Of a DNA stretch of 64,000 nucleotides, positions 23,152 through 33,285 are shown piece by piece (within the stretch, counting starts at the first letter, position 1; the number at the start of each line of letters is the position of its first letter). A model generated the notes under the pieces. That model saw nothing but the letters and a program-made list of their open reading frames with translations, searched no databases and was not told the origin of the DNA. Source of the DNA: Rhodospirillaceae bacterium. GTDB taxonomy: Bacteria > Pseudomonadota > Alphaproteobacteria > MPNO01 > UBA2964. The DNA is taken from contig PBIN01000003.1 in NCBI GenBank assembly GCA_002720855.1, forward strand, positions 1 through 64,000. Direction: 5' to 3'. Position numbers and translations under genes: made by a program.

Positions 23152-23649
23152 TTAAAGCGGGTATACGATCGAATCCGGTATTCGGTGCGTATCATAAACC
23201 ACGCGCTTTTCTTTAAATTTCAGCACGCCATCCAGCTCGACAATTATGTCATTATACTGCGCTGCCATGAGAAGCATCGTGTCGCCATCCGGCGAGGTTT
23301 GATAGATTACAACGTTGCAACGCGACCGGTATCCTTCACCGGTTTCATCAACAATCATTGGGCCGAGAACGTGGCGAATGATGCGGGGTGCAAAAACAGC
23401 CGCGTGTTGCGTTGCCGTCGCCCGGTCAATGAGCATCCCCACAGATTCGAACCGCATCACGCCAAGTTCCATTCCGCGACTGTGGTTGTCGCGTGAGACA
23501 ACGGTATAAAGGCACTTCTCCGTAAAGAATTGCGGCCAATTATCCAGCGGGCCGTCATCAATAGATGAAATATAGTCGAGTTGCAGACGCTCAATCCGGC
23601 GCAATATAGACTCATCGGTAACCGGCTGAGCCGCTTCAGTCTGGTCCAT
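23152..23649 (-). CDS. Aromatic-ring-hydroxylating dioxygenase, beta subunit
   Basis: The 165-residue protein has the SnoaL/NTF2-like beta-subunit fold of Rieske ring-hydroxylating oxygenases. Typical segments are RLQLDYISSIDDGPLDNWPQ, the YTVVSRDN strand, and a C-terminal FKEKRVVYDTHRIPDSIVYP. Its ATG overlaps the stop codon of the alpha-subunit gene by one base (TAATG), a strong sign of coupled translation and complex formation. Confidence 0.88.
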   Translation of the reverse strand: MDQTEAAQPVTDESILRRIERLQLDYISSIDDGPLDNWPQFFTEKCLYTVVSRDNHSRGMELGVMRFESVGMLIDRATATQHAAVFAPRIIRHVLGPMIVDETGEGYRSRCNVVIYQTSPDGDTMLLMAAQYNDIIVELDGVLKFKEKRVVYDTHRIPDSIVYPL

Positions 23650-24914
23650 TAAGTGATAGCCTTGCCGTGACCCATAACGTCGCGATAGCGCATGTAAAAT
23701 CCGCGGATGAGGGATTCGGTAACGAGATGATCATTGGATTCGCAGTCTTTACCGCCGATTTCAAGAACCGCGACCTCGTCTTCAGGTGACCCCGCCAAAC
23801 CAAGCTGACTGAATTCAAGCGCCTCAGCATCATCAAGTGTTACATACCCGGCCGACCCCATGAGGTTTGCCTGTCTCAAGCGCCGGTCATTCATCGCGTC
23901 GTCATCGTCCTCAAATCCGAAAAACGTCCAGACGAGTTCATGACTTCCCGGCCCCTTGGGAAGAACATGCCGTGTGGCCAAGGTATTGCATTGAGCCTGA
24001 ATAATTAAAGACGGGAACAAAGTTTGAATGGAGAGCGATATTCTATCTCCAAATTCCAAAAGCGGCTGGATCAGGTCATGGTCTGTCAGGGTGAAATCCG
24101 GTGCTGCAATGCGGACACCGCCAGTATCTTCATTGCCTTCTTCGGAATCCTTGATTGTCATCAAAACCGAGTGACCTTTGTTATCGTCGACCAGGCATTT
24201 AGACTCCTGATCGAGCCTGAACAAACCAAACGAGATCAAAAACAGATGTAGAATTCCGGCATGATACGGATCCTTCAAATTCTCCATTTGAAGTTTCCAG
24301 TTGCAGTCGATTATCTGCCTCTCATACCCGACCACCCGTAAGCCGCGTCCGTCGAAAATGCGGGTGAAATATTGCATCATGTCGGGGCCAAGATATTCCT
24401 CAAGCGGCACGACATCGTGATCGAAACTGGCAAAGACAACACCGTTCAATATTTCGACCTTTAAATTCGTAAGGCCGCGCGTCTTCATATCAAAATCCGA
24501 ATTTAAGCCGCCTTTGCCTTTGATTCCCCGCTTAAATGGCATACCCGTAAGTTCGCCATCAAGGGTATAGGTCCACTGATGGTAGGGACACATCAGGGCA
24601 GCGCCGGTATTTCCGAAAAGCCCCTGGCATAACTGGGCTCCTCGATGGGCACATCGGTTTTCAACAACGGAAATCGATCCGTCATTCTTGCGGATCATGA
24701 GGATTTCGCGTTCACCTATAAAATTGCGACGATAATCGCCGGATTCCGGCACCTCGCATTCAAGACCGACATAGTTCCAAGACGAACCATAGAAAATATG
24801 TTCAAGTTCTTCCGCATAAATTTCCGGGTTCTGATAAATCTGGTACGGCACACGCGTCGTGCCCGCGTCTGACCAAATATCCTTTTTGTCTAAAGGTGTT
24901 TGTATGCCGTCCAT
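23649..24914 (-). CDS. Aromatic-ring-hydroxylating dioxygenase, Rieske alpha subunit
   Basis: This catalytic subunit of a Rieske nonheme-iron oxygenase inserts oxygen into an aromatic ring or demethylates a side group. The 421-residue protein has the Rieske [2Fe-2S] ligands CAHRGAQLC and CPYHQWTY. The mononuclear iron motif is DPYHAGILH, with a distal Asp expected near the C terminus. I start at ATG 24912-24914, with AGGA 8 bases upstream; the longer frame adds 88 residues with no family match. The beta subunit follows at once. No ferredoxin or reductase gene is nearby, so electron donors must lie elsewhere. Confidence 0.88.
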   Translation of the reverse strand: MDGIQTPLDKKDIWSDAGTTRVPYQIYQNPEIYAEELEHIFYGSSWNYVGLECEVPESGDYRRNFIGEREILMIRKNDGSISVVENRCAHRGAQLCQGLFGNTGAALMCPYHQWTYTLDGELTGMPFKRGIKGKGGLNSDFDMKTRGLTNLKVEILNGVVFASFDHDVVPLEEYLGPDMMQYFTRIFDGRGLRVVGYERQIIDCNWKLQMENLKDPYHAGILHLFLISFGLFRLDQESKCLVDDNKGHSVLMTIKDSEEGNEDTGGVRIAAPDFTLTDHDLIQPLLEFGDRISLSIQTLFPSLIIQAQCNTLATRHVLPKGPGSHELVWTFFGFEDDDDAMNDRRLRQANLMGSAGYVTLDDAEALEFSQLGLAGSPEDEVAVLEIGGKDCESNDHLVTESLIRGFYMRYRDVMGHGKAIT

Positions 24915-25043
24915 TACATAGGTCCTACAAATCGCGACTGTGCAGAACCTACCGTGACGGGGGACAGGCTTCAAGATGATAAGTGCGCTGGACGAAGCTT
25001 GTAGCCGATGAAACAATCGTTCTGTAACAAATGGTGGAATACA

Positions 25044-25388
25044 ATGGCACTCAATCGTGTTCAGCCTGGCGCCTGGAACAGCAAGGCTGTTATCCATGGA
25101 GACACAATCTATATGTCCGGAATCGTTGCGGACGACAAATCCGCCGATATGAAAGGGCAAACGGAACAGGTTCTGCAAAAAATCGATGCTGTACTGGCAG
25201 AATCAGGGTCAGACAAATCCAAGATTGTCAGCTCTGTCGTTTATCTTGCTGATATGGATCAAAAGGACGAAATGAACGAGGCTTGGATGGCTTGGATGGA
25301 CCCTGCCAGCCCGCCGGCACGCGCTGCGGTTGGCGTTACACTCACTCCGGGAACACTCGTCGAAATTATGTGTGTTGCGGCGAAATAG
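25044..25388 (+). CDS. RidA / YjgF family protein
   Basis: RidA proteins hydrolyse reactive enamine/imine intermediates or act as catabolic helpers. The 114-residue length is typical. Visible signatures are GDTIYMSGIVADD, QTEQVLQKIDAVLAESGSD, and the C-terminal PARAAVGVTLTPGTLVEIMC, with the conserved Arg in the PARAAV motif. I chose the ATG at 25044, with GGTGG upstream, over an in-frame ATG 12 codons earlier. It is divergent from the Rieske operon with a 129-base spacer, so the two may share control. Confidence 0.87.
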   Translation: MALNRVQPGAWNSKAVIHGDTIYMSGIVADDKSADMKGQTEQVLQKIDAVLAESGSDKSKIVSSVVYLADMDQKDEMNEAWMAWMDPASPPARAAVGVTLTPGTLVEIMCVAAK

Positions 25389-25901: not shown

Positions 25902-26042
25902 TCCGCCTCCCCAAGCGCATCTGCATAGGTTTTACCGTAAGAACGTCATTGTCGCCAACGCATCGATAATTGTTGACGATACTCCAACGCTCAACGAACA
26001 TTTAGTCGGTGTACAGAAAACCCTATGGGTCAGGAGGTTCCT

Positions 26043-26453
26043 ATGGGCAAACTACGTCACATTGCACTCTCTGTAGAAAATCCCGAAGCCAGCTGCGAGT
26101 TTTTTAAGAAGGCTTTCGACATGGAGGAAATCGGCCATTCAAGAACCGGTACAAAATATTTAACGGATGGCACCGTCAATATTGCACTGCTAAATCGCAA
26201 GGGAAAACCGCTTGGATATGAAGGTGACGAGCCGTTCTTCGGTATCGATCATTTTGGAATTTGGGTTGATGATGTCGAAAAAGCGTGCGAACAGGTCGAG
26301 GCAGCCGGAGCAGAACACATAATGGGAAACAAATCCGGTGATCCCAATAGTTTCTATGAAATTAAATACCGAATGCCCTCAGGTGAAATATTTGATATCA
26401 CCGCGGGAGGATGGCGCGGCGCAGTCAAAGACGTCAAACCGGCCAAAGACTGA
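26043..26453 (+). CDS. VOC (glyoxalase/bleomycin-resistance) family protein
   Basis: The 136-residue protein is a single VOC unit with paired beta-alpha-beta-beta-beta motifs. It starts KLRHIALSVENPEASCEFF (the first metal His is IAL-adjacent), with later HFGIWVDDVEKACE and the C-terminal Glu region PSGEIFDI. A strong AGGAGG at 26032-26037 fixes the start at 26043 rather than at the ATG 18 bases earlier. It precedes the deiodinase-like selenoprotein gene by 14 bases and is probably its cotranscribed partner. The reaction is unknown. Confidence 0.85.
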   Translation: MGKLRHIALSVENPEASCEFFKKAFDMEEIGHSRTGTKYLTDGTVNIALLNRKGKPLGYEGDEPFFGIDHFGIWVDDVEKACEQVEAAGAEHIMGNKSGDPNSFYEIKYRMPSGEIFDITAGGWRGAVKDVKPAKD

Positions 26454-26467
26454 GCAAGGGAACCGAT

Positions 26468-27127
26468 ATGCCTATAGAGCTGCCGAAAGAGATAGAAGAC
26501 CGAATCGCAATGATGAGCGATGAAGAACTAGCCTTTCGCGGCTGGACGAAGGAAGGCATGCGGATGCGCTACCAGCAAAGGCTCGAGGACGACATAAATT
26601 CACCACAAGTGGGCGAGCAAGCACCAGATTTTCGGCTTGAAAGACTCAGCGCTGAAGGTAAGCGTATAGGAGAATATTTGACGCTGAGCTCGTTACGCGG
26701 CAAACCGGTTGGATTGATATTTGGGTCCTATACCTGACCACCCTTTCGTCGTGAGGCCGTGCGTCTCGACAACATTGCAAAAGAGTTTGGCGACCGAGTT
26801 CATTTTTTGTGCGTTTATATTAAAGAAGCGCATCCGACTGATGGCTCACAATCGCCACCAAATATCGATGACAAAATTCTTTATGCCCAGCCGACGACAG
26901 AAGACGAGCGCGCGGAGGTTGCCGCAGCGTGCATGTTACGCTTCAACTTTTCTTTTCCGATGGTTCTTGACAATATGACTAACGAGGTTGAAGGAAATTA
27001 TAAGGCCATGCCTGAACGTCTCTATATGATTGACGCCGACGGCCGGGTAACATGGAAATGCGGTTTGGGACCACATCTTTTTGACCCCGACGGGTTTGAA
27101 GAGGCTGTAAGGAAATTGGCGATTTAG
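26468..27127 (+). CDS. Iodothyronine-deiodinase-like selenoprotein with in-frame UGA (Sec)
   Basis: Two open segments in the same frame are separated only by a TGA at 26735-26737. Read through as selenocysteine, they make one 219-residue protein. The joint reads GSYT-U-PPFRREAV, the active-site motif of deiodinase-family selenoproteins, where Sec sits at exactly this point. The second segment continues FLCVYIKEAHPTDG, another hallmark of the family, in a thioredoxin-fold domain. The N-terminal about 45 residues are helical (MSDEELAFRGWTKEGMRMRY). The start ATG at 26468 follows the VOC gene by 14 bases. A SECIS-like hairpin follows the TGA. Family members in animals remove iodine; bacterial ones are of unknown role, probably redox or dehalogenation. 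A gene caller would split this into two false fragments. A nonsense mutation is possible but would have to hit the Sec codon by chance. Confidence 0.85.
26735..26770 (+). promoter_or_regulatory. Candidate bacterial SECIS element with the Sec UGA
   Basis: The UGA at 26735-26737 is followed 10 bases later by a hairpin. GTCG (26748-26751) pairs with CGAC (26767-26770), then there is a T-T mismatch (26752/26766), then GA pairs with TC. The loop carries GT at 26759-26760. Counting the U of UGA as 1, the unpaired U is at 18 and the GU at 25-26, close to the bulged U17 and G23-U24 of the E. coli fdhF SECIS known to bind SelB. The pairing is seen; SelB binding is inferred. Confidence 0.6.
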
Positions 27128-27143: not shown

Positions 27144-27947
27144 ATGACCTCTGAGAGACTTTCACAAAACTGGCTGGATGACGGATTTGTTGCAGTCCGC
27201 GGCGCCTTTTCGGAAGACATGATGGAACTGTTGCGTGTTGGAACCGAGAAAGCAATGTCGGAGCCAAGCGAGACATCCAAGGAATATGCCGAAGAAGGTA
27301 AAGGACGGTTTTTTACCGATCACCACATGCATCGCCGTATACCGGAGTTCAAAAAGTTTCTTGATGACTCGACGGTTAAAGATCTTGGTGGACATCTCAT
27401 GCGGAGTAAAAAGCTCAACCTTTTCGATGAACACCTTCTCGTCAAAGAACCCGGCACAGAGAATCCAAGCTATTGGCACCAAGATCTGCCCTACTACGAA
27501 ATTGCCGGAACCCAGATCATTTCAATGTGGATACCGATGGACCCGACAAGCCCGGAATCCGGGTCAATCAGCTTTGTCCGGGGGTCACATCGATGGGGCA
27601 AGGTATTTCAGCCAATTCGCATCGGCCTTGGCGATCTGGTGGAGGAGGCCGAGACATTTGACGGTCCGGCCCCCGATATTGAAGCAGAGCCGGAAAAATA
27701 CGATATCGTCACCTTCGATGATTTGGAGCCCGGCGATTGTCTAGCATTTCAGGCAGCGGTCTTGCATTACGCATCACCCAACGTGTCCACGGGAACGCGT
27801 CGACGCGCAGTCTCAATCCGGTTTGCTGGTGATGACGTAACCTGGCAGCCGAGGCCCTATATTCCCTCCGTCACCGATAGCCCAGATCTGGTGGCCGGTG
27901 GTCCGCTGGATAGCGATCAATACCCGGTCGTCTGGACCGAAGCGTAA
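27144..27947 (+). CDS. Phytanoyl-CoA dioxygenase family protein
   Basis: This second PhyH-type Fe(II)/2-oxoglutarate oxygenase has 267 residues. The iron-binding HxD is in SYWHQDLPYYEI, and the distal His with the 2-oxoglutarate Arg fits AVLHYASPNVSTGTRRR. It starts 16 bases after the deiodinase-like stop codon in the same direction, so VOC, selenoprotein and PhyH look like one operon. The substrate is unknown; hydroxylation of a halogenated or thyronine-like compound would be speculative. Confidence 0.86.
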   Translation: MTSERLSQNWLDDGFVAVRGAFSEDMMELLRVGTEKAMSEPSETSKEYAEEGKGRFFTDHHMHRRIPEFKKFLDDSTVKDLGGHLMRSKKLNLFDEHLLVKEPGTENPSYWHQDLPYYEIAGTQIISMWIPMDPTSPESGSISFVRGSHRWGKVFQPIRIGLGDLVEEAETFDGPAPDIEAEPEKYDIVTFDDLEPGDCLAFQAAVLHYASPNVSTGTRRRAVSIRFAGDDVTWQPRPYIPSVTDSPDLVAGGPLDSDQYPVVWTEA

Positions 27948-28052
27948 CACCTCACGCCACTTCACAAGATCGTCATCGGAAGCCTGACGCTATAGCGGCA
28001 CGTTTTTTGCCTACCTATGTCATTTGGACAACACCAACCAAGGGGCAAGGTT

Positions 28053-28676
28053 ATGGCTGATGAAATCGAACCGGTAAAAGTAACGCTATTTCGCTGGGCA
28101 GGTGCTTGGGGACCATTCAAAGTCAATATTCCCTGCGGTGAATGCTCGCTTACGCTCGATGTCATAAAGGACACTTTCGAAACAGAGCTCGAGGGCGTTC
28201 CTGTAGAACTGGACCTACGAGACTGGCTCACCGAATGGTGGAAACCGCTCATAAAGGGTGGTTGGCACGCGCCGATTGTTCTTGTAGACGGCAAGTTGGT
28301 TAGCCAGGGTGCCGCCCTCAATCGCGGCGTCCTCACCGAGGCCATCATCGATGCCTACGCCAGAAGGTCGGAAGTCAGCAGCAATGTTCTTTTTGGCAAA
28401 GCGACCTGCCCGCACTGCGTTCGGGCCAAGGAGTACCTGGACGAAGCGGGAATCAATTACGACTATTACGACGTCGTCCGTAATCCGCGCGCCTTGTATG
28501 AAATGCTCGCCCGGGTAAAACCAATCGTCGGTCCCAAGACACCAATAACGGTGCCACAGATATGGTTGGATGGACGTTATGTCGGCGGCGCCGACCAGCT
28601 CAGCACGTTACTTGAGCGTGAGATTGAACCTAATCCCGATCGCGGTCAGTGCTCCCTATCAGCAAAAGCCGCATAG
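28053..28676 (+). CDS. Two-domain thioredoxin-fold protein with C-terminal glutaredoxin
   Basis: The 207-residue protein has two redox-like halves. The N-terminal half (about 1-105) has a thioredoxin-like strand followed by PCGEC and ends with a cis-Pro-like APIVLVDGK. The C-terminal half (about 115-195) is a clear glutaredoxin with ATCPHCVRAKEYLDEAGI, TVPQIWLDGRYVGGADQL. I start at ATG 28053, with AGGGGCAAGG upstream. It lies 105 bases after the PhyH gene on the same strand and may reduce the nearby selenoprotein; that link is inference. Confidence 0.8.
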   Translation: MADEIEPVKVTLFRWAGAWGPFKVNIPCGECSLTLDVIKDTFETELEGVPVELDLRDWLTEWWKPLIKGGWHAPIVLVDGKLVSQGAALNRGVLTEAIIDAYARRSEVSSNVLFGKATCPHCVRAKEYLDEAGINYDYYDVVRNPRALYEMLARVKPIVGPKTPITVPQIWLDGRYVGGADQLSTLLEREIEPNPDRGQCSLSAKAA

Positions 28677-29601: not shown

Positions 29602-30378
29602 TTAGAAATTTACGCGGACTTCACCAAGCGGCCCAAAATCTGCAATACCCTCGCTGCCCGCCTCTATCGGTGCAAGACCAGTACAGGTCCCCAATGTCAC
29701 AATTTGTCCTGCTGCCAGCGGACACCCCAAATCGATACAAAGATTTGCTAGCCAGGCAAGAGAGTTCAGCGGATCGCCGAGAACCTCTGCGCCGTCACCC
29801 TCTCCTTTCAATGAACCATCAATCGAGAGTGCGACACGATGAGATCGCAAATCATACTGACGCCAATCAGTGCTTGGCGTTCCGAGTACTAACCCTGCCA
29901 CCGTGCCCGCTGCGATCAAGGTATTTTCACCCGCGGCCTTACGGTCACCAATCCGGGAATCAACAATTTCGACGGCAGGGATCACGGCCGCAACGGCATC
30001 TGCGACAGAACCGGAATCATAAGGCTCGTCTCCGCCTTTTAACCCTGCACCCAGCATGACGGCAAATTCACCTTCAAGTGCCGGATTGGCAAACCTTCCC
30101 TGCTGGACATCAAGAGGACTCACCGCCAGAGCAGCACTCGGCAGGCGGCCAGCGAAAGGCTGGTTGATGCCGAGCATCGATTGAGTAGTGTGATTTGTCG
30201 CCGCAACTTTCCAGCCGACCTGGAAGGTACCGTCCACTCTCAGAACGGCGTCCTGAACTTGATATCCTTCTGTTCGGGTCGATGGTCTGCACGATTCTGG
30301 GAGCTGGTCGATCTTGCTGCCCTCATCGCGGCATTGCAGCAGTATCTCAGCGGCCTGTTCAGCGGCTTCGGGTGTCAT
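29602..30378 (-). CDS. 2-keto-4-pentenoate hydratase / FAH-like hydratase
   Basis: This 258-residue protein fits the MhpD/XylJ hydratase and 4-oxalocrotonate decarboxylase group, which acts on the products of meta-cleavage of aromatic rings. Segments are QVGWKVAATNHTTQSMLGI, the metal-ligand Glu pair in PALEGEFAVMLG, AVIPAVEIVDSRI, and GDPLNSLAWLANLC. It would suit an aromatic pathway with the Rieske and VOC enzymes of the window. It lies 83 bases upstream of the CmcJ-like gene, so cotranscription is possible. Confidence 0.82.
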   Translation of the reverse strand: MTPEAAEQAAEILLQCRDEGSKIDQLPESCRPSTRTEGYQVQDAVLRVDGTFQVGWKVAATNHTTQSMLGINQPFAGRLPSAALAVSPLDVQQGRFANPALEGEFAVMLGAGLKGGDEPYDSGSVADAVAAVIPAVEIVDSRIGDRKAAGENTLIAAGTVAGLVLGTPSTDWRQYDLRSHRVALSIDGSLKGEGDGAEVLGDPLNSLAWLANLCIDLGCPLAAGQIVTLGTCTGLAPIEAGSEGIADFGPLGEVRVNF

Positions 30379-30523
30379 AGCGGGGGTTTCCTGTTGTAAA
30401 AATACGCAGTCCCGAAAACCTAGTGCGAAAACCAGACAAGCGGCAAGTAACAGCGAACAACGAAACGAATTATTCTTGCTTTTCGTCGAGTGTGGTATAG
30501 AACCGCTGCCCGCAGCATACGGA

Positions 30524-30599
<76 letters not shown>

Positions 30600-30654
30600 T
30601 TTTCTTAGTGTTCCAAGTTTTTCGGGCCAAGACAATGTAATTTCGGCTATATTT

Positions 30655-32961: not shown

Positions 32962-33037
32962 CTTCTTCTCTCGAAATGTCCGAGGCCCGGTCGATAACTC
33001 TTTTTGTCGAGGAACTGACTCCTACCCTGCTATCAGC
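32962..33037 (-). pseudogene. Remnant of the 3' end of a hydroxycinnamoyl-CoA hydratase-like gene
   Basis: This 76-base stretch is about 78% identical to 34190-34265, the 3' end of the intact hydratase/lyase gene, in the same orientation. On the minus strand it still reads SQFLDKKSYRPGLGHFERR, against SQFLDEKSYRPGLGHFERR in the complete protein. Many differences are silent, so the source was a functional homologue and not random decay. The rest of that gene is absent. It directly precedes the damaged tRNA-Thr copy. Confidence 0.75.
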
Positions 33038-33044
33038 ATTCGGA

Positions 33045-33120
33045 GCCAGCTTAGTTCAGTTCGTAGAGCACCTGATTTGTAATCAGGGGGTCGGAGGTTC
33101 AAGTCCTCTAGCCGGCACCA
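33045..33120 (+). pseudogene. Damaged second copy of tRNA-Thr (UGU)
   Basis: This 76-base copy is identical to the intact tRNA-Thr from about base 21 (GTAGAGCACC) to the CCA and a further 6 bases (TTTTC-type flank). The 5' 20 bases differ at several places. Acceptor pair 4-69 becomes A-C, the D stem has a G-T wobble, and the D-loop GG is changed to CG, losing an invariant G. It is therefore probably not a working tRNA. The pattern fits an attachment-site-like duplication of a tRNA 3' part. Confidence 0.7.
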
Positions 33121-33285
33121 TTTTCGAAACCGTCGCTGAAAGCGGCGAAAGTTCGAAAAACCCCCCGGACGGTTCCAAATTAATGCGTGCCAGCTTGAAA
33201 TTAGTTTAAGCGGGCGCAAAACTGTTTTCATAGAAAAGATCGTGCCACTATGGCGCTCGTTGACAAAATTTTTAGGGTGGTCGGT

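Follow-up and report, generated by a model that had tools for sequence, protein, structure and literature searches.

Deiodinase-like proteins have been known from bacteria since 2005, when selenocysteine (Sec) and cysteine (Cys) forms with a bacterial SECIS element were reported from Sargasso Sea bacteria and a redox role was suggested for them (PMC1088965); the table row for the family in that paper gives 4 sequences, followed in the next column by 6, which we take to be the Cys homologues. The GOS table (PMC2398784) gives 22 for the deiodinase-like family in a row that names no UxxC motif, and the relevant parts of reviews of 2022 and 2026 list the bacterial family with the motif UxxC, the later review noting that bioinformatics was the source of almost every one of these selenoproteins. 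In Dictyostelium, a deiodinase homologue occurs as a selenoprotein in the absence of thyroid hormone (PMC2375036), and null mutants of this homologue have normal DIF dechlorinase activity (PMC3205185), so that deiodinase homologues need not dehalogenate a given aromatic compound. We found no report in the open-access literature of the activity of any bacterial deiodinase-like protein, of a linkage of deiodinase-like genes to the sel operon, or of the conserved cysteine (Cys155) described below. Bacterial Sec deiodinase-like proteins are a kind already known, and because the family has been in print since 2005 the present finding is less novel than a first-pass annotation of this DNA had held. 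The genes studied here share with the Sargasso Sea and GOS sets the Pfam family PF00837, an active-site Sec, a bacterial SECIS after the UGA and the existence of Cys homologues, but differ in that their host genomes give copy number, linkage to the sel operon and gene context. Our additions are genome-resolved hosts, the sel-operon linkage, a neighbourhood conserved across a genus, and Cys155 as a candidate resolving residue.

We analysed a window of 64,000 nucleotides (contig PBIN01000003.1, from an alphaproteobacterial Rhodospirillaceae bacterium), in which one reading frame contains a single TGA at the site of the deiodinase Sec, the frame being otherwise intact, as the first-pass annotation had proposed.

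26468..27127, + strand: predicted deiodinase-like selenoprotein coding sequence, 219 aa with Sec90 (reading frame, PF00837 match, start as in the orthologues L026 and L049)
26735..26737, + strand: Sec90 codon, TGA (TGA in 51 of 53 distinct motif-bearing genes, TGT in 2)

The frame runs from an ATG at 26468 to a TAG at 27125-27127, with the TGA as its sole in-frame stop, and translation with TGA as U gives a protein that contains FGSYTUPPF and the core segment FLCVYIKEAHPTDG, both as originally quoted, with an EAHP motif 30 residues C-terminal of Sec90. Under the standard code the gene is split into fragments at 26411-26737 and 26759-27127, the two small pieces that had been expected, and one translated frame of the antisense strand contains 3 TAA/TAG and 2 TGA. 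Comparison with the orthologues L026 and L049, each with 88% protein identity to the window gene 3' of the TGA, gives dN/dS values of 0.04-0.075 and so indicates purifying selection there; these values refer to the 3' part only, dS 5' of the TGA being saturated or undefined and YN00 giving no estimate there.

The whole read-through protein is a member of the T4_deiodinase family PF00837 (83.8 bits, E 1.5e-23, gathering cut-off 27), the search that had been recommended at first pass; the fragment 3' of the TGA matches by itself (E 1.7e-14), and the upstream fragment by itself has no PF00837 match. It is also matched by the AhpC-TSA Pfam (36 bits, cut-off 26) and, over positions 173-340, by NF038285 deiodinase_rel (171.2 bits, under the 250-bit cut-off), a family of 347 positions of which the window protein lacks the N-terminal half. 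The top PDB matches by sequence are DIO3 (3.2e-21) and DIO2 (9.4e-20). An AF2 model of the window protein (pLDDT 94.2) is nearest to mouse DIO2 (9h48, Z 21.9, 2.7 A over 171 aligned residues) and DIO3 (4tr3, Z 21.6, 2.2 A over 165), with ResA-type proteins (Z about 18-19), AhpE (Z about 17) and Tpx among the further matches. ResA-type thiol-disulfide oxidoreductases and AhpE/Tpx peroxiredoxins have the fold in common with the window protein, with lower Z and shorter alignments than the deiodinases, and their active-site motif differs from that of the window protein.

We investigated the distribution of the TGA among relatives. PF00837 matches occur in 19 of the 27 genomes of the order (32 matches, 30 with exactly one TGA and 2 without), and scanning GTDB contigs yielded 44 loci. 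Going by record title, most are from alphaproteobacterial MAGs, many of them from marine metagenomes, with Chloroflexi, Myxococcota and Deltaproteobacteria also represented; two records come from named strains, Ruegeria arenilitoris and Marimonas lutisalis. One of the two scan patterns had Cys in place of Sec, and the scan was therefore taken to favour Cys forms. After duplicate collapse there were 53 motif-bearing genes, the window gene included, of which 51 carry TGA and 2, those of R. arenilitoris and M. lutisalis, carry Cys; outside this set are five matches off the motif pattern, namely three fragments and the distant Cys forms L046 and L047 (GSLTCPMF). The position opposite the TGA, which had been singled out as a check, is accordingly Sec or Cys in all 53, and an alignment with other residues there was not seen. 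Because the TGA occupies the same codon in 51 of 53 genes and is followed by codons under purifying selection, its placement is not attributable to chance, in agreement with the first-pass judgement. A nonsense-mutated pseudogene or a sequencing error would also present one in-frame stop under the standard code, but the TGA in 51/53 genes and the low dN/dS after it, together with the covarying SECIS and complete Sec machinery set out below, rule against such an origin, which we regard as practically excluded. We additionally observed Sec deiodinase-like genes in tandem (L058:275-850 and 949-1536) and, near an intact copy, truncated second copies that lack the in-frame Sec region (L054:7570-8335 and L114).

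Bacterial SECIS elements are described as having a small apical loop containing G (PMC1088965), and shortly after the UGA we identified a hairpin with a small apical loop containing G.

26753..26767, + strand: SECIS apical hairpin, stem GAGGC / GUCUC, loop CGUGC (recognised comparatively, by register and covariation)

This hairpin occupies nt 16-30 after the TGA, with a 5-bp stem and a 5-nt loop that begins at nt 21. The full stem is present in 48 of the 51 Sec genes (synonymous codon randomisation, 300 runs: mean 5.4, maximum 13; eight shifted registers: 0 to 6 of 51), and 44 of the 51 have the loop CGUGC; the incomplete stems are those of two Chloroflexi genes (3/5 pairs) and L045 (4/5). The two sides of the stem change together (CAGUC/GACUG, AAGGC/GCCUU, GAGGC/GUCUC, CAUGC/GCAUG, CACGC/GCGUG and others), 98% of stem cells are paired (<=47.6% in slid registers), two-sided stem changes number 37 against 10.3 when shuffled (0/500 shuffles as high), and the covariation score is 0.502 against 0.138 shuffled. 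The number of stem pairs with two-sided changes, 3/5, is not above chance (2.3 shuffled, 161/500). Shared ancestry among the sequences inflates these counts relative to the number of separate events; among representatives of <70% identity, with one gene per locus, 20 of 22 have full stems, of 11 types, and all 7 of the Sec genes found later have the full stem. Four distinct close Cys forms retain 2, 3, 3 and 4 of the 5 pairs, and the Sec forms L108 and L109, which carry UPYC in place of UPPF, do not use the nt 16-30 register. A single-sequence fold after the TGA was not significant (z 0.37) and is uninformative, so that the element is recognised only through comparison. A scan that returned 4 hits where 2.8 were expected included a terminator-like match at 26783-26801. 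The Chloroflexi Sec genes L084:4133-4177 and L087:4187-4231 lie off the main register; judged by eye, L087 could form an alternative stem (CGCUC-AGGUU-GAGCG) slightly 5' of it.

The genome of the window (3.58 Mb, 15 contigs, 98% complete) contains the complete set of Sec-insertion genes whose presence had been proposed as a check, and the objection of a genome without them did not arise. Profile searches identified selA (603 bits), selB (455 bits) and selD (308 bits), each above its curated cut-off, and a tRNA-Sec (67.6 bits, above its curated cut-off; ARAGORN anticodon tca); selA, selB and selC are adjacent in series on contig C15, and selD is inside a 779-aa ORF (L010:1390-3729, - strand), the N-terminal half of which we take by eye to be oxidoreductase-like. 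Across the order, selA is present in 18 of the 19 genomes with a PF00837 match, the exception being G009, which has a TGA form and no selA match in an assembly of 520 contigs and 93% completeness. Since selA occurs in 25 of the 27 genomes of the order and is too common there to be informative, we also used a class-wide draw of 385 genomes, in which 19 had a PF00837 match (18 above the cut-off) and 11 had the TGA form: 3 of the genus, 6 others of UPPF type and the 2 of UPYC type, the latter (L108 and L109) constituting a second Sec form of the family with a UxxC motif. G399 was not counted, because its protein as aligned is of Cys type and the stops listed for it fall elsewhere. All 11 TGA-form genomes have selA above the cut-off, against 56 of 385 overall (hypergeometric 2.5e-10, phylogeny ignored), and so do 4 of the 8 match-bearing genomes without the TGA form. 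The conserved TGA, the SECIS stem, the PF00837 membership and the sel genes of the genome together indicate that the window gene is almost certainly a real deiodinase-like selenoprotein gene, and the UGA at 26735-26737 is, with high confidence from these sequence data, read as Sec by SelB and tRNA-Sec under the guidance of a SECIS hairpin within the coding sequence. For decoding of the UGA as a different amino acid (Trp or a suppressor), or for its use as the functional stop of a short regulator, we found no support; the presence of tRNA-Sec and SECIS, and of either UGA or Cys at this position in the aligned relatives examined, argues against either, leaving them a negligible likelihood.

We identified two PF00837 genes in the window genome, each with one in-frame TGA, the second being associated with the sel operon.

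L022:1411-2085, same strand as selA: second deiodinase-like gene, FGSYTUPPF, Sec95 (PF00837 match, one TGA)

This gene ends 15 bp upstream of selA. By coordinates, 9 of 9 genus members examined have a deiodinase-like gene immediately 5' of selA and in the same orientation; the window type and the selA-linked type fall apart in a tree of the deiodinase-like genes. In Alphaproteobacteria, Sec is described as serving mainly in formate dehydrogenase (PMC8124441). The best TIGR01553 formate dehydrogenase match in the window genome scored 127.5 bits, far under the cut-off of 814.2, and the listed matches have no in-frame stop; thus, no formate dehydrogenase of this family was found that would account for the retention of the sel genes. 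A peroxiredoxin-like gene (L022:794-1282, - strand) with an in-frame TGA in YRGHWUPYCRR is divergently oriented to the second deiodinase-like gene and the sel operon. Of the other 8 genomes of the genus, 7 have a relative of 80-87% identity at this location, and in the remaining one the contig begins at the deiodinase-like gene; same-strand relatives of 61-62% identity occur in L025 and L030.

We compared the active-site residues with those of the animal deiodinases in an alignment of 52 proteins (50 Sec and 2 Cys forms).

26726..26734, + strand: S87-Y88-T89, directly N-terminal of Sec, with S87 and T89 corresponding to DIO1 Ser123 and Thr125 (S87 in 52/52, T89 in 51/52)
26825..26833, + strand: E120-A121-H122 of EAHP, corresponding to DIO2 Glu160 and His162 (E120 and H122 in 52/52)
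26930..26932, + strand: Cys155, candidate resolving cysteine (50/50 Sec forms and 7/7 further Sec forms)

The Ser/Thr, Tyr, Glu and His set around the catalytic Sec of deiodinases is present: S87, Sec/Cys90, E120, H122 and R184 are found in all 52 sequences and T89 and Y117 in 51, and counterparts of S87, T89, Y117, E120 and H122 have been named in deiodinases (PMC11592359, PMC9141512), where the Thr hydroxyl beside Sec is described as essential (PMC9141512). The window protein is like animal DIO1-3 in its best PDB sequence and structure matches, its GS-x-T-U-PPF motif and its EAHP, but is not known to share their iodothyronine substrates. It differs from them in that the SECIS lies within the coding sequence and in that two animal features are missing. 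The proximal Cys two residues before Sec (DIO1 and DIO3; Ala in DIO2), needed in DIO1 for reduction by glutathione (PMC9141512), is replaced by Y/F at position 88 in 52/52, and the relay His of the animal enzymes (DIO1 His174, DIO2 His182) is not conserved among the 52 sequences, the candidate positions 142-144 being mainly Pro/Thr/Ser (P 50/52, T 30/52, T 37/52; exact alignment uncertain); DIO1 H174A is reported to be still active (PMC9141512). No N-terminal hydrophobic anchor stretch was seen by eye in residues 1-45.

In the AF2 model, residue 90 is directly N-terminal of helix 91-107 and Cys155 lies within helix 145-159, 65 residues after Sec; the distal Cys of the deiodinases is 69-76 residues after Sec, and the sequence alignment does not pair the two. 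Cys155 is present in 57 of 57 Sec forms of UPPF type, and 90 and 155 are the sole Cys/Sec residues of the aligned region in 18 of the 52 sequences, suggesting that Cys155 may resolve the oxidised Sec. Both Cys forms of the alignment have Trp at this position; of the four distinct close Cys forms found in all, three have Trp and one, L095, has Cys at both positions, so that a strict co-occurrence of Sec and Cys155 is broken on the Cys side. The Sec proteins of the main group combine UPPF with a distant Cys155, in contrast to the UxxC of the reviews, which the UPYC form of two genomes (L108, L109) does contain.

The same selenoprotein could instead be a thiol peroxidase or a general thiol-disulfide or redox protein of peroxiredoxin-like character. 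The peroxiredoxin/thioredoxin-like fold, the lower-ranking structural matches to ResA, AhpE and Tpx, the AhpC-TSA match, the second copy adjoining a peroxiredoxin-like gene with its own in-frame TGA, and the redox function suggested in 2005 (PMC1088965) are all consistent with this, but deiodinases are the best matches by sequence and by structure, EAHP and the relay residues are invariant or nearly so in the 52 sequences, and the motif is TUPPF rather than UxxC. We give this function a little less than an even chance, and regard it and dehalogenation, which rests on homology, relay residues and context, as about equally likely.

We examined the genes around the selenoprotein gene in the window and in its relatives.

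26025..26453, + strand: glyoxalase/VOC-fold gene, 14 bp upstream of the selenoprotein gene (beside 5/5 orthologues)
27144..27947, + strand: PhyH-family (phytanoyl-CoA dioxygenase) gene, 16 bp downstream (beside 5/5 orthologues)
28017..28676, + strand: protein with a C-terminal glutaredoxin domain (near L026, L048 and L049)
23152..25178, - strand: Rieske ring-hydroxylating oxygenase alpha and small SnoaL-like subunit (both in L052 and L053)
29602..30378, - strand: FAA-hydrolase / 2-oxopent-4-enoate hydratase-like gene (in L051, L052 and L053; under NCBIfam cut-offs)

Five orthologues were recovered from the genus (L026, L033, L045, L048 and L049), all with VOC and PhyH neighbours; the glutaredoxin-domain gene is not in the expected gap of L045, and the contig of L033 ends before that place. 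In L052 and L053, which extend further, the Rieske oxygenase gene and that of its small subunit are shared as well, together with SDR, RidA-like and FAA-hydrolase-like genes. By sequence, the neighbourhood is conserved within the genus and is suggestive of ring oxidation. Beyond the genus, the Myxococcota gene L057 is also followed by a PhyH-like gene (29% identity), but 20 neighbour proteins, picked by hand at 14 of the 44 GTDB loci, gave no common theme, and a pathway shared across lineages was rejected for these neighbours. With the scanned neighbours varied among lineages, a Sec enzyme acting on another electrophile, neither halogens nor peroxides (a quinone, an epoxide, or an organic sulfur, selenium or arsenic compound), has also to be weighed, but nothing positive speaks for it and we think it improbable. 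Elsewhere in the window, a 2.5-kb stretch containing a formyltransferase-domain gene and an unassigned 476-aa ORF lies between two tRNA-Thr(TGT) copies (30506-30604 and 33027-33125, 92% identity over 99 nt) and is possibly a tRNA-linked insertion.

We tentatively propose a dehalogenase mechanism, short of an even likelihood for the full scheme. Sec90, placed before a helix in a thioredoxin/peroxiredoxin-like fold, would be the selenolate that reacts with a small-molecule substrate, and the conserved Ser87/Thr89/Glu120 network would deliver the protons, as proposed for the animal deiodinases. The oxidised Sec would be resolved by Cys155 through an Se-S bond, which would then be reduced by a cellular thiol, possibly helped by the neighbouring glutaredoxin-domain protein. 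The overall reaction would be the reductive dehalogenation of a halogenated aromatic, a substrate chosen because the adjoining genes look like ring oxidation. The deiodinase matches, the relay residues, the ring-oxygenase, SDR and hydratase-like neighbours and the PhyH-like gene at L057 count for dehalogenation; counted against it are the missing relay His, the normal DIF dechlorinase activity of the Dictyostelium null mutants, the closeness of ResA and AhpE, not far behind the deiodinases structurally, the conservation of the neighbourhood in the genus only, and the TGA form without selA in G009. As a broader and rather doubtful conjecture, soluble Sec90/Cys155 deiodinase-type enzymes might serve in Alphaproteobacteria as aerobic reductive dehalogenases of natural iodinated or brominated aromatics, with the window locus serving ring oxidation and the sel operon of the genus headed by such a gene and not by formate dehydrogenase.

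With these results, a selenoprotein family of predicted function can be assigned to particular genomes, its SECIS has the backing of covariation, and specific residues are available for mutagenesis. Such genes are likely to appear as two fragments or a pseudogene under automatic annotation. Should the bacterial proteins prove to be dehalogenases, a selenium-dependent enzyme would be added to halogen cycling, and the chemistry of the thyroid-hormone deiodinases could be older than thyroid hormones.
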